From positions 1 through 64,000 of the forward strand of contig NZ_RRYH01000021.1 in NCBI RefSeq assembly GCF_004010155.1: a DNA stretch of 64,000 nt, given 5' to 3'. The DNA is from Solirhodobacter olei (GTDB lineage: Bacteria > Pseudomonadota > Alphaproteobacteria > Rhodobacterales > Rhodobacteraceae). The notes under the pieces are model-generated. The model searched no databases. It worked only from the letters and a program-made list of their open reading frames with translations, and was not told where the DNA came from. Positions 32,307 to 54,210 of the stretch are shown in pieces. Position 1 is the stretch's first letter. Every line of letters begins with the position of its first letter. The position numbers and the translations under genes are program-made.

Positions 32307-33248
32307 TCAGCGGATGTAACGCAGAGAAGCCATTTCGTTGGCGAAGTGGCTAGGGCCGCCATCGATGCTAAAACAAGGAACGAGGTGATAGACGCGAGCA
32401 TCTACCCCCCTGACAGAATGATCGTCTCCGGGGGAAAGGTTATAAGTCGTGCACGTAATAAGATAAAGCAGCTCAGGAGCGCCGTCATCCGGACTCGATT
32501 TATCAACCTTTCCGGCTGGGATCAGGTTGGGTTCAGTCGGAAAAGGCGTTTTTTCACCCGGGAAAATTATGGCAATGCTGGAAAGAGATTTCTTTCTCTC
32601 TTCAGATGCGACAAATGCATCTCTTGCGGCTATCAGATCAGTTGGATGCCTCATCGCAACGATTTTAGGGGCCGCGCGGACTTGGTAAGCAGCAGTTTTC
32701 CCCCTGTTGAAAAATTGGGTCTTCCAGTAAAGGCCGTAGCCGTTGTCGCCAATCGTCCGAGTGCATTGAGGATCAAGGTAGAAATCGATCAGGGGCCTTT
32801 GCTCCAGTCGGCTGATCTCGTTCGCCTCAGAGGCGTGGCGAAGCCCGGCGTTAGTCTGAAAAATGGCATACAGAACCCCCCCTACCCCAAAAATGCTCAA
32901 GACAAACGTGAAGATGCCCACAAGGAAGGAACCATAGTTCCATTCAGCAATATCCTGCTGCGCCTTCAGGTCATACTGGGCTTGGGAGTCGCCTTGATTG
33001 GCGGATACCTTTTCTATGACACATGCAAGCCAGCCAGAAACGCCATGCTTAGACAGAGGGAGCAGGCAGGATTGGTTGGCTATCTCGCTTTGGCTTGTAT
33101 AGTATGCGGCAGCGCTTTGGCGCTCATGCGCATGTTCGTTTTGATAAGCTAGAAATGAACTTGCGGCTCGGTAGACACTGACGCTGCCAAGCAGCATGAA
33201 AAGTGCTAATCCAACCGCAGCGATGTACGCCCAAGCGCGACAAGACAT
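32307..33248 (-). CDS. Two-TM membrane protein of unknown function (low GC)
   Basis: A 313-aa protein with an N-terminal membrane helix (about residues 6-28, AYIAAVGLALFMLLGSVSVY) and a second one (about 107-132, FLVGIFTFVLSIFGVGGVLY). A C-terminal cytosolic domain of about 180 residues follows, with FNRGKTAAYQVRAAPKIVAM. The helices make the minus frame far more credible than the plus frame covering the same DNA. Base composition is clearly more AT-rich than the surroundings, which suggests acquisition. It overlaps the DUF6471 gene by 43 bp, so the two form a unit. Family not recognised. Confidence 0.7.
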   Translation of the reverse strand: MSCRAWAYIAAVGLALFMLLGSVSVYRAASSFLAYQNEHAHERQSAAAYYTSQSEIANQSCLLPLSKHGVSGWLACVIEKVSANQGDSQAQYDLKAQQDIAEWNYGSFLVGIFTFVLSIFGVGGVLYAIFQTNAGLRHASEANEISRLEQRPLIDFYLDPQCTRTIGDNGYGLYWKTQFFNRGKTAAYQVRAAPKIVAMRHPTDLIAARDAFVASEERKKSLSSIAIIFPGEKTPFPTEPNLIPAGKVDKSSPDDGAPELLYLITCTTYNLSPGDDHSVRGVDARVYHLVPCFSIDGGPSHFANEMASLRYIR

Positions 33249-33451
33249 TGTAAGAAGAACCTAGCCGTGAACTTACCTCGGCTTACCTTATTGCGCAGAT
33301 TCCGCTCGTTGTCTTCTACTCCTACGGCAGCAAGCTTCTCGACCAGTCCCGCATAGGTAACGTTCCGGCGGGCCATCTCGGCCCGTAGCAGGCCCTTGGC
33401 GATCAGCCCCCTCGACGTCCGCGGGCATCCCAGCCGGAACGCCGGTGCCAT
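33206..33451 (-). CDS. DUF6471 domain protein, putative DNA-binding
   Basis: An 81-aa protein, most of it the DUF6471 domain: KGLLRAEMARRNVTYAGLVE, then DNERNLRNKVSRGKFTARFF and LQCLVALGRTSLRL. The fold resembles a small helix-turn-helix of Xre type. The ATG at 33451 lies inside the repeat array at 33443-33491, so either the array is its operator or the true start is further in (Met26 or an alternative codon). It is coupled to the following membrane protein by a 43-bp overlap. Confidence 0.7.
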   Translation of the reverse strand: MAPAFRLGCPRTSRGLIAKGLLRAEMARRNVTYAGLVEKLAAVGVEDNERNLRNKVSRGKFTARFFLQCLVALGRTSLRLD

Positions 33452-33491
33452 ACGGTGCGAAAGCGGTGCAAAAGCGGTGCTGTTACGGTAT
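33443..33491 (-). repeat. Phased 11-bp hexamer array upstream of the DUF6471 gene
   Basis: On the minus strand the hexamers run ATACCG, GCACCG, GCACCG, GCACCG, GCACCG. Their plus-strand positions are 33486-33491, 33475-33480, 33464-33469, 33453-33458 and 33443-33448, so the spacing is 11, 11, 11 and 10 bp. Upstream, TTGTCG lies 17 bp before TACCGT, a possible promoter pair. The same hexamers and spacing recur at 52422-52470. Confidence 0.7.
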
Positions 33492-33574
33492 CGCCTTTTT
33501 CGAGTTCCGACAAAGGCTTACCCGCCCGAAGGCGCTCCCGCCCCCGGCTCCGGGCACGCCCCGGCAGGATTGCG

Positions 33575-34225
33575 TTAACTGGTCAGATGCCGCAGCCCCT
33601 GCGTCACGTCGGTGCGGACCGCGAGGCGCAGCCCCGGCTCGTCTCCGGCCCTGAGCGCAGCAAGGATCATCCGGTGATGCTGCGGCGGCTCGTTCCGCCT
33701 GAGCCGCCCGTAAAGCGCCCGCATCGTGGGGCCCAGCTGCAGCCAGACCGTCTCGGCGATGGCCAGCATCGCCGGCGCCTGGGCGCGCAGGTAAAGCGTC
33801 CGGTGAAACTCCAGGTTGGTGCGGATATAGCCCACCGCATCCTGCTTCGCGACCGCCTCGGCATTGGCCGCGTTGATCGCCTGAAGCCTTTCTATTAAGG
33901 CGAAATGCGCCCGCGGCAGCGCCCGGCTGGCAAGCTCCGGCTCCAGCAGCGCCCGGATCGCCGCCATCTCCTCGATCCGCTCGTTCGACAGTTCCGGCGC
34001 GGTCACCCGGCCGGAAGAGGACATGGTCAGCGCCCCCTCGGCCACCAGCCGCTGCACCGCCTCCCGCGCCGGGGTCATCGAGACGTCGAAGGTCTTGGCG
34101 ATCCCCCGCAGTGTCAGCGGCTGGCCCGGCGTCATCTCGCCATGCATCACCTGCACCCGCAGCGTCCGGTAGACCCGGTCATGCGCGGCGGGAAGCGAGT
34201 CGGCGGGGCGGGGCTGCAACAGCAT
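33575..34225 (-). CDS. GntR-family regulator (FCD subfamily)
   Basis: A 216-aa regulator. The winged helix-turn-helix is at about residues 15-75 (MTPGQPLTLRGIAKTFDVSM, then TPAREAVQRLVAEGAL). The all-helical FCD ligand domain at about 90-210 has the metal-binding pattern FHRTLYLRAQ. FCD regulators usually sense carboxylates or sugar acids. No catabolic gene is adjacent; the sugar-acid dehydratase operator at 5499 has a compatible style but is far away. Confidence 0.9.
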   Translation of the reverse strand: MLLQPRPADSLPAAHDRVYRTLRVQVMHGEMTPGQPLTLRGIAKTFDVSMTPAREAVQRLVAEGALTMSSSGRVTAPELSNERIEEMAAIRALLEPELASRALPRAHFALIERLQAINAANAEAVAKQDAVGYIRTNLEFHRTLYLRAQAPAMLAIAETVWLQLGPTMRALYGRLRRNEPPQHHRMILAALRAGDEPGLRLAVRTDVTQGLRHLTS

Positions 34226-35499: not shown

Positions 35500-35575
<76 letters not shown>

Positions 35576-50831: not shown

Positions 50832-52337
50832 TCAGCCGCCCGACGCGCGACGGGCGAGGATCGCGCGCACGGCCGCGACCAGATCTGCCCGCGCCACCTC
50901 GGTCTGCGCCGGCTGGGCCTTCCATTCCTCATGGCTCGCCGCGGCGGCGATCTCGGCACCGAGGATGAGGTCCTTGAGCTGGACGACACCGCGCGCCGCC
51001 TCGTCCCCGCCCTGAATGACGGCGACGGGAGAGGCGCGTTTATCGGCGTATTTCAACTGGTTGCCGAAGTTCTTCGGGTTGCCGAGGTAGACCTCGGCCC
51101 GGATCCCGGCGGCACGCAGCTCGCCGACCATGGCCATGTAATCGGCCATCCGGTCGCGGTCCATCACGGTGACGACGACAGGGCCCGGCGCGGCCTCCTG
51201 CCCGATCCGGCCCTTGGCGCGCAGCGCGGCAAGGAGCCGGTCGACGCCGATGGAGATGCCGGTGGCCGGCACCGACTGGCCGGTGAAGCGCTTGACCAGA
51301 TCGTCATAACGCCCTCCGCCGGAAACCGAGCCGAAGCTGCGCTTGCGGCCCTTCTCGTCGAGGATTTCGAACGTCAGTTCGGCTTCGAAAACCGGGCCGG
51401 TGTAATAGCCCAGACCCCGCACCACGGCCGGGTCGACGATGATCCTGTCCGGCCCGTAGCCCTGCGCGTCGAGGAGTTCTGCGATGGTCTCCAGCTCCCG
51501 CACGCCTTCTGAGCCGATGGCGGAGGGGCCGACGAGGCCGCGCAGGTTCGCGGCCGTGGCCTCGCCGTTCGCGCCCTGGGCGGCCATGAAGCCCATGACG
51601 ACCTCGGCCTGCTCGGCGCCGAGGCCGGCGCCCTTGGTATAGTCGCCCGACTCGTCCATCCGGCCCTTGCCGAGGAGCGCCCGGACGCCCTCGTCCCCAA
51701 GCCGGTCGAACTTGTCGACGGCGCGCAGGACGATGCCGCGTTGATGCGAAAACCGTTCCGGATCAGAGGGATCGAGGATTCCCGCGACCTCCATCACGCC
51801 GTTCAGAACCTTGCGGTTGTTGACCCGGATGACGTAATCGCCGCGCGGGATGCCGACATGTTCCAGCGCGTCGGAGAGCATGGCGCAGATCTCGGCATCG
51901 GCCGCCACGGTGGGGGCGCCGACGGTATCCGCATCGCATTGATAGAACTGGCGAAAACGCCCCGGCCCCGGCTTCTCGTTGCGCCAGACCGGGCCCATGG
52001 CGTAGCGCCGGTAGGGCGAGGGCAGGTCGTTGCGGTATTGCGCGGCGACGCGCGCCAGCGGCGCCGTCAGGTCGTAGCGCAGCGCCAGCCAGTCGCTGTC
52101 CTCTTCCTGCCAGGCGAAGACACCCTCGTTCGGGCGGTCGACGTCGGGGAGGAATTTTCCAAGCGCCTCAACGGTTTCGACGGCCGAAGTCTCCAGAGGG
52201 TCGAAGCCGTAGCGGTGGTAGACCTCGGCAATGCGGCCGAGCATCTCGGTGCGCTCGGTCACTTCCGCGCCGAAATAGTCGCGGAACCCCTTCGGGGTCT
52301 CGGCACGGGGCCGGCGGGGGGCTTTGTCCTTGGCCAT
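50832..52337 (-). CDS. hisS: Histidyl-tRNA synthetase
   Basis: A 501-aa class II synthetase. Motif 1 lies in [20 protein letters not shown]. Motif 2 includes [36 protein letters not shown] and [17 protein letters not shown] complete the histidine and ATP site, and the C-terminal anticodon-binding domain begins near residue 400. It leads the hisS-hisZ-hisG operon, so tRNA charging and histidine synthesis are coexpressed. Confidence 0.96.
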
Positions 52338-52421
52338 GGGCTATGCACCTGCTTGTCGCGCGGGTCCATAGCGCGTGCATGGCGGCGGGGCAAGGCGGCG
52401 GGTTGACGGGGCGTACGGTGC

Positions 52422-52470
52422 ATACCGTAAATGCACCGCTTTCGCACAGTAACCGCACCGTAGCTTACCG
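52422..52470 (+). repeat. Second phased 11-bp hexamer array, between hisS and slyX
   Basis: The hexamers ATACCG (52422), GCACCG (52433), GCACAG (52444), GCACCG (52455) and TTACCG (52465) have spacing 11, 11, 11 and 10 bp. This matches the array at 33443-33491, including the 16-bp identity TGCACCGCTTTCGCAC. It lies 85 bp before the hisS start on one side and 39 bp before slyX on the other. Confidence 0.65.
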
Positions 52471-52508: not shown

Positions 52509-52715
52509 ATGACCGACCGCATCACCGACCTCGAAGAACAGCTCGCGCATCTTTCGCGCAACGTCGACGACCTTTCGGAAGTCGTCGCCCGGCAGGCGCG
52601 CGAGATCGACCTGCTCTCCCGCCGCCTCGGCCTGCTGATGGAGCGCGAGGCGGAGCGGGAGGTGGCCGAGGGCGGCACGATCCCGCTCGCCGACCAGCGC
52701 CCGCCGCATTGGTGA
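52509..52715 (+). CDS. slyX: SlyX family protein
   Basis: A 68-aa coiled-coil protein: TDRITDLEEQLAHLSRNVDD and LSRRLGLLMEREAEREV are heptad-like, and the C-terminus ADQRPPHW is the family hallmark (PPHY/W). Function is unknown. It is divergent from hisS and convergent with the Lrp gene. Confidence 0.88.
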   Translation: MTDRITDLEEQLAHLSRNVDDLSEVVARQAREIDLLSRRLGLLMEREAEREVAEGGTIPLADQRPPHW

Positions 52716-53296: not shown

Positions 53297-54097
53297 ATGT
53301 CTGGAAAGACGCAAGCGGATCGGCCGGCATATCGCTCCAAGGAGCCGGATGCCGCGGGCTACTACGCCTATAGCGCGGCGGAGGATACGGTCTGGGGCGC
53401 GCTCTTCGACCGGCAGATGGACTACCTGCCCGGCCGCGTCGCGCCGGACTACCTTGCGGGGGTCGAGGCGCTGGGGCTGACCCGGGCGCATGTGCCGCAG
53501 GTCAGGGAGATCGACGCGCGGCTCGCCGGGCTGACCGGCGCGGGGGTCGAGGGCGTGCCCGCGATCATCCCGCCCTCGCGGTTCTTCGAGCTGCTCTCGC
53601 AGAAGAAATTCCCGGTCGCCACCTTCCTGCGGCGGCGCGAGGAGATGGACTACATCGAGGAGCCGGACATCTTTCACGAGGTCTTCGGCCATTGCCCGCT
53701 GCTGACCAACCCGGCCTATGCCGCCTTCATCGAGAAATTCGGCAAGCTCGGCGCGACGCTCGGAAAGCCTTACAGCTGGCGGCTGTTCCGGCTGTTCTGG
53801 TTCACGGTGGAATTCGGGATGATCCGCACGCCCGATGGGCTGCGCGCCTTCGGGGCCGGCATCGTGTCGTCGCCCGCCGAGGCGGAACATGCGACCTCTG
53901 GCAGGGCGGAGATGCTGGATTTCGACCTGATGACGATCTTCCGCACGCCCTACCGGATCGACATCCTGCAGCCGGTCTATTTCGTCATCGACAGCTTCGA
54001 GCAGATCGAGGCCGCGCTCGACGCCGATATCGCCGGCATGATCGACGAGGCCAAGCGCCTGGGCGACCTGCCGCCGCGCTTCGAGGCGGCCGCCTGA
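53297..54097 (+). CDS. phhA: Phenylalanine 4-monooxygenase
   Basis: A 266-aa monomeric, pterin-dependent iron enzyme that hydroxylates phenylalanine to tyrosine. The iron ligands are the two His of DIFHEVFGHCPLL and a Glu in WFTVEFGMI. VPAIIPPSRFFELLSQKKFP and FDLMTIFRTPYRIDILQPVY match the family. The start has GGAAGGGGGGATTCC upstream. Confidence 0.95.
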   Translation: MSGKTQADRPAYRSKEPDAAGYYAYSAAEDTVWGALFDRQMDYLPGRVAPDYLAGVEALGLTRAHVPQVREIDARLAGLTGAGVEGVPAIIPPSRFFELLSQKKFPVATFLRRREEMDYIEEPDIFHEVFGHCPLLTNPAYAAFIEKFGKLGATLGKPYSWRLFRLFWFTVEFGMIRTPDGLRAFGAGIVSSPAEAEHATSGRAEMLDFDLMTIFRTPYRIDILQPVYFVIDSFEQIEAALDADIAGMIDEAKRLGDLPPRFEAAA

Positions 54098-54109
54098 GGC
54101 CTCCGGCGG

Positions 54110-54157
54110 GGATATTCGGGCCAAGATGAAAAACCCTTTCACCTTGGCAAAATATCC
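54110..54157. terminator. Bidirectional terminator between phhA and dnaE
   Basis: GGATATT...GCCAAG.TGAAA and TTTCA.CTTGGC..AATATCC form a long imperfect inverted repeat centred near 54134 between two convergent genes. It belongs to the same GGATATTT/GGAGTATTT class as the elements at 43301 and 48960. Confidence 0.65.
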
Positions 54158-54183
54158 TCGGGGGTGAATTGGCCAGAGGCCAA

Positions 54184-54208
54184 AAGGGGGCGGACAGCCC
54201 CCTTCTTT
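54184..54208 (+). terminator. Intrinsic terminator near the dnaE 3' end
   Basis: AAGGGGGC/GCCCCCTT form an 8-bp stem with a 5-nt loop, followed by CTTT. It backs up termination of phhA transcripts before they enter dnaE antisense. Confidence 0.6.
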
Positions 54209-54210
54209 CC

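Follow-up and report, generated by a model that had tools for sequence, protein, structure and literature searches.

What are the phased direct repeats in this part of the Solirhodobacter olei genome, and what might read them? The 64,000-nucleotide stretch analysed here (the window; positions 1 to 64,000 of contig NZ_RRYH01000021.1, assembly GCF_004010155.1) carries two arrays of short repeats, one at a gene encoding a DUF6471 protein and the other between hisS and slyX (Table 1). A preliminary description of this DNA had reported five hexamers at each locus, spaced 11, 11, 11 and 10 bp, and a string common to both, TGCACCGCTTTCGCAC; direct reading confirmed the layouts and the shared string. 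It had further proposed that a protein binds cooperatively on one face of the DNA, and that the DUF6471 protein is this binder, regulating its own gene while also acting at the second site. Here we report that the two arrays belong to a set of 74 in the source genome, and we propose, with a probability of about one in two, that these are the binding sites of one co-evolving, cooperative and sequence-specific putative protein with a chromosome-level role.

Both arrays stand above chance level. The pattern ACCG-N7-ACCG-N7-ACCG, with at most one mismatch, matched five times in the window, four of them within the two arrays, whereas 100 dinucleotide shuffles of the window gave a mean of 0.54 matches and a maximum of 3. 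In the whole source genome (G000, 4.78 Mb) the exact pattern matched 111 times, against 0 for a reversed-pattern control. Together, the shuffles and this control rule out a chance origin. When the array at the DUF6471 gene was used as a query, it returned at least 40 matches in its own genome (the best 40 of 74 candidates scored). A sequence-only model built from 23 G000 arrays gave 80 matches at E ≤ 1 among the 150 candidates scored; of these, the 74 at E ≤ 1.1e-4 form our set, and the six weaker ones were left out. The array at the DUF6471 gene has the top score of the model but is among its training arrays, and the hisS/slyX array, from outside the training set, is a weaker member. The size of this set rules out the idea that the two form a private pair.

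We compared G000 with six other species of the same Rhodobacteraceae genus (G001–G006). Model matches at E ≤ 0.001 numbered 53 in G002 and 72 in G005, the latter assembly being 70% complete. Across 41 genomes (G000 and 40 relatives), the three-unit pattern was frequent in G000 (111), G002 (110) and G005 (177) only, and the remaining 38 genomes had 0–8 matches each, near the level of the reversed control. A stricter pattern of three [A/G]CACCG units matched 51, 57 and 93 times in G000, G002 and G005 and not at all in G001, G003, G004 and G006. Among 394 genomes drawn evenly from the family, only two of them from this genus, a four-unit pattern matched 11 times in G000 and once each in three others, where the matches resembled unrelated tandem repeats. 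Finally, we searched 84,980 named species for a pattern whose spacers were fixed as TTT. Of the 51 stretches matched, 47 came from the metagenome assemblies Rhodobacteraceae bacterium RI_331 and WY4.bin28, which we take to be G002 and G005, and four were single matches elsewhere. Thus three of the seven species of the genus are rich in arrays, and the genomes searched contained no further array-rich member. The array cores, queried as six sixteen-base strings, were not found in the open-licence papers searched.

The anatomy of the element emerged from an alignment of the 74 G000 arrays with 42 G002 arrays among those listed (from 40 loci, covering all but two of the stricter-pattern sites), to which we added a reading of 31 G005 arrays, those met in loci already fetched out of the 72 model matches. 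Each element is a direct-repeat array, not a single palindromic site: [A/G]CACCG recurs four to five times at an 11-bp period, with A/T-rich spacers between the units. A conserved block of ~35 bp (with GCAAG, TTGG, GGCT and AAAA) usually comes first, followed by ATACCG and then three or four [A/G]CACCG units. The commonest G005 form reads ATACCG-ATTTG-GCACCG-ATTTC-GCACCG-ATTTG-ACACCG-ACGTT-GCACCG. By eye, the A/T stretches of the spacers and of the upstream block keep a roughly constant helical phase. With 10.5 bp per helical turn, each 11-bp step rotates the next half-site by ~17 degrees, which leaves all five close to one face of the DNA. Using a rule of our own, we divided the G000 arrays into 48 of type A and 26 of type B; type B continues through TACCGTATTTCGGGACGGTGG to GCGCAAC, and most of this 116-bp stretch is common to its members.

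To place the arrays relative to genes, we called genes with our own codon-usage script, which overlooks genes of unusual composition, DUF6471 among them. By these calls, 72 of the 74 G000 arrays are intergenic. They lie in 25 convergent, 6 divergent and 43 tandem gaps, the last figure including two arrays called inside a gene, whereas the gaps of 80 bp or more that lack an array, taken from the same loci of G000 and G002, comprise 26 convergent, 70 divergent and 82 tandem ones (Fisher P 1.7e-7 for G000 and 0.019 for G002). The 42 G002 arrays divide into 11 convergent, 9 divergent and 22 tandem, and the 31 G005 arrays into 14, 1 and 14, with two at contig edges. Within tandem gaps, arrays oriented with and against the genes are about equally common (23/20 in G000, 11/11 in G002 and 6/8 in G005). 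Because of these gap-class counts and the equal sense and antisense numbers, we conclude that placement tracks gene ends, a tendency strong in G000 and G005 but weak in G002, and does not track the direction of transcription. Many neighbours resemble housekeeping genes (guaA, lepA, typA, topA, recN, radA and hisA, named by eye from the starts of their sequences), no common function is obvious from these names, and no partition operon was noticed by eye beside the arrays.

The arrays are also evenly spread along the G000 contigs. The 51 distances between neighbouring arrays of one contig lie between 10.1 and 95.5 kb (minimum 10,085 bp) and have a coefficient of variation (CV) of 0.54 against 0.90 for random placement, and none of 2,000 random placements was as even. 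No interval was shorter than 10 kb, where 10.9 would be expected. The search did not merge neighbouring matches, as pairs 1.3 kb and 55 bp apart are listed in G002 and G005. Array-bearing G000 contigs total 3.46 Mb, and a uniform distribution would place ~20 arrays in the other 1.32 Mb. Sixteen of these other contigs were sampled; four exceed 15 kb, one of them being 208 kb long. These four (C29, C49, C56 and C66) have no strong arrays, and their G+C content (GC) is 0.61–0.64 in the stretches read, against 0.67–0.69 in a stretch of the array-bearing contig C40. The arrays may thus be confined to the main chromosome of G000. By eye, the four contigs carry accessory-looking genes and could be plasmids or chromids.

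Array positions are partly shared between the carriers. Counting a site as shared when one or both flanking genes match in side and strand, we found 13 shared sites between G000 and G002, 9 between G000 and G005 and 7 between G002 and G005; at 5, 2 and 3 of these, respectively, both neighbours match. All three carriers have arrays at two places. Presence at hisS in close relatives, to which the preliminary description had tied its case, divides: G002 has an array at the orthologous hisS/slyX place, but G005, G006, G003 and G001 have none there. In G002 loci L249 and L252, two arrays 1.3 kb apart have near-identical upstream flanks, a local duplication, and two further arrays 2.7 kb apart have seeming counterparts on one G005 contig.

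We found that each carrier has its own spacer dialect. In G005, 113 of 113 spacers begin with A after ACCG, as do 91 of 129 in G002, against 26 of 182 in G000, where C (97/182) and T (57/182) are commoner. The difference persists at orthologous positions: at the 9 sites shared by G000 and G005, A occupies this position in 3 of 19 G000 spacers versus 31 of 31 in G005, and at the 13 sites shared by G000 and G002 in 5 of 34 versus 29 of 42. Identity of ACCG itself at shared sites (0.99) is circular, since the sites were chosen by ACCG, and we used the spacer dialect alone. A coordinated spacer change over dozens of unlinked sites is what would be expected from a binding protein whose preference had altered.

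Traces of arrays also occur outside the carriers. At E ≤ 1 the model gave 4–6 weak matches per array-poor sister species, similar to 14 genomes of other genera (0–13). However, the best two matches in G006 and the best in G004 are flanked by the same gene pair as arrays in carriers, and we read them as decayed arrays; they represent two orthologous loci, one in both G006 and G004 and one in G006. Both neighbours matched at three of eight sister loci, versus none of 22 from other genera (where two one-sided matches lay away from the match). One weak G003 match is inside a gene, and apparent remnants seen by eye in G003 and at G006 hisS/slyX were no better than shuffles. Because decayed arrays lie at orthologous sister loci, some arrays are older than the split of these species. 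By eye, the spacers of the decayed G006 arrays are mostly of the A kind, which suggests that the dialect probably changed in the G000 lineage. In an unrooted tree of nine proteins, G000 and G005 fall on one side (support 86) and G002 groups weakly with G004 and G006 (70); since this separates G002 from the other two, the carriers may not be one clade.

The observations are the arrays themselves, their copy number and placement, their spacing in G000, the dialects, the partly shared positions and the decay at two loci; from these we infer protein binding, cooperativity and a chromosomal role. Each unit would supply an [A/G]CACCG half-site every 11 bp, and a putative protein would occupy neighbouring half-sites along one helical face, with the A/T-rich spacer either bending or being read in the minor groove. 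Half-sites lying nearly on one face would make side-by-side binding of a protein chain natural. The general idea of cooperative one-face binding in the preliminary description fits these data and is strengthened by the genome-wide set. A role in nucleoid organisation, segregation or positional signalling is favoured over control of neighbouring genes, because array orientation is indifferent to that of the genes and few arrays lie at divergent promoters. As the arrays recur every 10–95 kb in G000, mostly beyond gene ends and beside genes of any direction, a chromosome-level role appears likeliest.

Several observations weigh against this interpretation. The binder was not found. The convergent bias is weak in G002, and even spacing is a property of G000 only: the G002 set (53 model matches and one stricter-pattern site) has a CV of 1.33 versus 1.23 for random placement, with the 1.3- and 2.7-kb pairs, and G005 contigs are too short for this measure. 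Two G000 subfamilies, and the ~115 bp shared in type B, would suit copied elements too, and the dialects could come from gene conversion among copies. Of 22 orthologous gaps in four sisters (gap by species), 3 hold clear decayed arrays, 3 are marginal (P 0.004–0.03) and 16 gave no signal, and the 3 clear ones had been found first by genome search; most arrays either vanished without trace in the sisters or never existed there. The replication terminus offers no common rule either. On the 912-kb G002 contig C23, we found 3 of 54 arrays against 13.7 expected from the array-bearing contigs (binomial P 1.6e-4; 0.0015 counting all 4.3 Mb). The GC skew in the stretches read of this contig is terminus-like, mostly positive to ~600 kb and mostly negative after ~618 kb, and the switch at ~600–640 kb is the probable replication terminus of G002 (RI_331). 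The best dif-like 28-mer on C23, at 622.6 kb, lends weak support, with 9 of 28 mismatches to Escherichia coli dif (next best 10). One intact shared array apart, the C23 positions that correspond to array sites of G000 or G005 showed no conspicuous decayed array; three stretches there reached P 0.005–0.055. In G000, 14 of 74 arrays have a neighbour gene orthologous to the 702 kb of C23 read, about chance level. Neighbour genes of the arrays on contig C40 correspond to genes on either side of the C23 switch. The skew of C40 reverses near 50 kb, with the flanking arrays at 20.9 and 100.2 kb; G000 thus keeps arrays within roughly 30–50 kb of its likely terminus. No dif-like sequence above the cut-off lies near the C40 change. 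Because G000 arrays have neighbours orthologous to C23 genes and persist near the G000 terminus, a general exclusion from the terminus is not supported; scarcity of this kind is seen in G002 only. We also set aside a KOPS-like polarity, as array strands look mixed along contigs by eye in the site lists.

The main rival, which we judge somewhat unlikely, is that the arrays are a non-autonomous dispersed intergenic repeat, MITE- or REP-like. A transposase would bind the phased units and spread the copies, immunity to transposition of the kind known from Tn7, Mu and Tn3 would prevent two copies from settling within 10 kb of each other in G000, and insertions into genes and promoters would be selected against, leaving those at gene 3′ ends. 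REP/BIME and MITE repeats favour gene 3′ ends, and the arrays resemble them in this, in their intergenic position and in their many copies; the spacing in G000, the two subfamilies and the GCAAG and GCGCAAC ends of the stretch shared in type B agree with this account as well. Among the gaps listed, those in carriers are mostly longer than array-less orthologous gaps (~138 vs 43 bp; 105 vs 60–63 bp), although some lengths misfit (138 vs 138 and 162 vs 270 bp). Such repeats, however, are built on palindromes or inverted ends, whereas the arrays consist of direct units in helical phase, and by eye on the alignments we noticed neither inverted-repeat ends common to the subfamilies nor target duplications. 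Because the best ungapped identity within a G000 subfamily is 0.87 over 83 positions, there are no recent duplicates in that genome. Orthologous copies carry species-wide dialects that differ from one species to another, which would not be expected of dead copies. Searches for a plasmid or phage origin returned only weak or single stray matches: for the window array these came from plasmids, and for one G005 array from both plasmids and phages; in a viral collection, five contigs had one match each.

A less probable account is that an ordinary transcription factor, distinct from DUF6471, uses the arrays as operators and controls an unusually large and mixed regulon. Boxes of the OmpR/PhoB type consist of direct half-sites every 11 bp with A/T-rich spacers and lie at promoters. 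The arrays share this geometry, and some are shared at orthologous genes. They differ from such boxes in being scarce at divergent promoters and having no fixed orientation; the convergent excess and divergent deficit, strong in G000 and weaker in G002, the equal sense and antisense numbers and the lack, by eye, of an obvious common function among neighbours all argue against operators. We disfavour, as very improbable, an RNA-level element such as a 3′ untranslated region structure, terminator or Rho-loading site: arrays do lie beyond gene 3′ ends, their units are C-rich and type B allows a short hairpin to be drawn, but there is no strand preference, none of nine predicted pairs showed two-sided covariation in the 26 type-B elements, and Rfam returned only a tRNA in the 10 loci searched.

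Least credible is the earlier proposal that the DUF6471 protein binds the arrays, regulates its own gene and acts at hisS/slyX: although array 1 contains the start codon of the longest DUF6471 reading frame and two of the three carriers have the gene, there are 74 arrays and not two, the carrier G002 has no PF20075 match, no array occurs in the 2.2 kb examined around the G005 gene, and arrays are under-represented in divergent gaps with no preferred orientation to transcription. Across the seven genomes, PF20075 matched once in G000, once in G005 and nowhere else; G002 is 93% complete, and a missed gene is possible there. The gene travels with a gene for a probable membrane protein. In G005, where the pair lies at locus L263, 1483–2225, the membrane-protein gene likewise follows DUF6471, and DUF6471 adjoins an ISXO2-like transposase gene, named by eye. 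The DUF6471 proteins of G000 and G005 share 58% identity over 72 residues. Our codon-usage caller missed the pair in the window (32307–33451), which points to atypical composition. The pair looks like a small mobile cassette that landed beside an array; the membrane protein stands outside the array system, and DUF6471 is not needed to explain the arrays. Neither the two DUF6471 proteins nor the window membrane protein had a PADLOC match at E ≤ 1, the membrane protein had no Pfam match, phmmer found no relative of DUF6471 with a solved structure at E ≤ 1, and DUF6471 was not found in the open-licence papers searched.

The window contains further features (Table 1). One is a second dispersed intergenic repeat of the genus, between open reading frames (ORFs) resembling an aromatic amino acid hydroxylase and dnaE (named by eye), parts of which match many places in G002, G003, G004 and G006.

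Table 1. Features of the window; unit coordinates are given for each array
Feature	Position	Strand	Remarks
ORF, probable membrane protein, DUF6471 partner	32307..33248	-	31% identity over 152 amino acids to the gene after DUF6471 in G005
DUF6471 gene	33206..33451	-	PF20075, E 4.2e-28
Array 1	33443..33491	-	E 1.4e-18; ATACCG 33486-33491; GCACCG 33475-33480, 33464-33469, 33453-33458, 33443-33448
Array 1 upstream block	33492..33523	-	TAAG..TTG..GAAAAAGGCG; matches block conserved before many arrays (74-array alignment)
GntR/FCD regulator gene	33575..34225	-	array 1 lies beyond its 3′ end
tRNA gene	35500..35572	+	Rfam RF00005
hisS	50832..52337	-	left neighbour of array 2
Inverted unit ahead of array 2	52414..52419		TACGGT
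Array 2	52422..52470	+	E 3.4e-7; ATACCG 52422-52427; GCACCG 52433-52438; GCACAG 52444-52449; GCACCG 52455-52460; TTACCG 52465-52470
slyX	52509..52715	+	right neighbour of array 2
Second dispersed repeat	54085..54209		

Known systems offer partial parallels to the binding arrays proposed here. One is the nucleoid-occlusion site sets of Noc and SlmA, a type bound by a ParB-like or TetR-like division inhibitor. Around 70 dispersed chromosomal sites are given for Noc and 24–52 for SlmA in an excerpt of one source (PMC4726725). The arrays (74 in G000, 53 in G002 and 72 in G005) are likewise dispersed by the dozen, as are the sites called NBS and SBS of those proteins; they differ in that Noc and SlmA sites are palindromic and under-represented in the Ter region, whereas ours are direct repeats and scarce on the skew-switch contig in G002 only. 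In geometry the closer parallel is with the iteron-like centromeres of plasmids. Excerpts of two further sources describe two sets of five direct 9-bp repeats with 2-nt spacing, an 11-bp period, in the stbDRs of R388 (PMC3098194), and a need of R1 ParR for at least two 11-bp repeats (PMC9426499). R1 parC, the site of ParR, and the R388 stbDRs, the sites of StbA, thus share with our arrays about five direct repeats at an 11-bp period, but they are plasmid-borne beside a partition operon, whereas dozens of arrays here are dispersed beside genes that look mixed by eye, with weak plasmid matches. By analogy, then, the arrays would resemble Noc and SlmA sites in number and plasmid parC and stbDR repeats in geometry.

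A more specific form of the chromosome-level reading, which we put forward tentatively, is a dispersed iteron-like centromere or scaffold. A genus-restricted putative protein would coat some 50–100 phased arrays distributed along the chromosome and use these numerous small docking points to organise or segregate it; arrays and protein would co-evolve fast into species dialects, and in sister species the system would have been lost, with leftover arrays decaying. If true, three species with chromosome-wide docking arrays that their sisters lack or have lost would provide a natural experiment on the function of such arrays, and on the joint change of a DNA-binding specificity and some 70 sites. 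The arrays themselves are ready-made bait for finding the protein.
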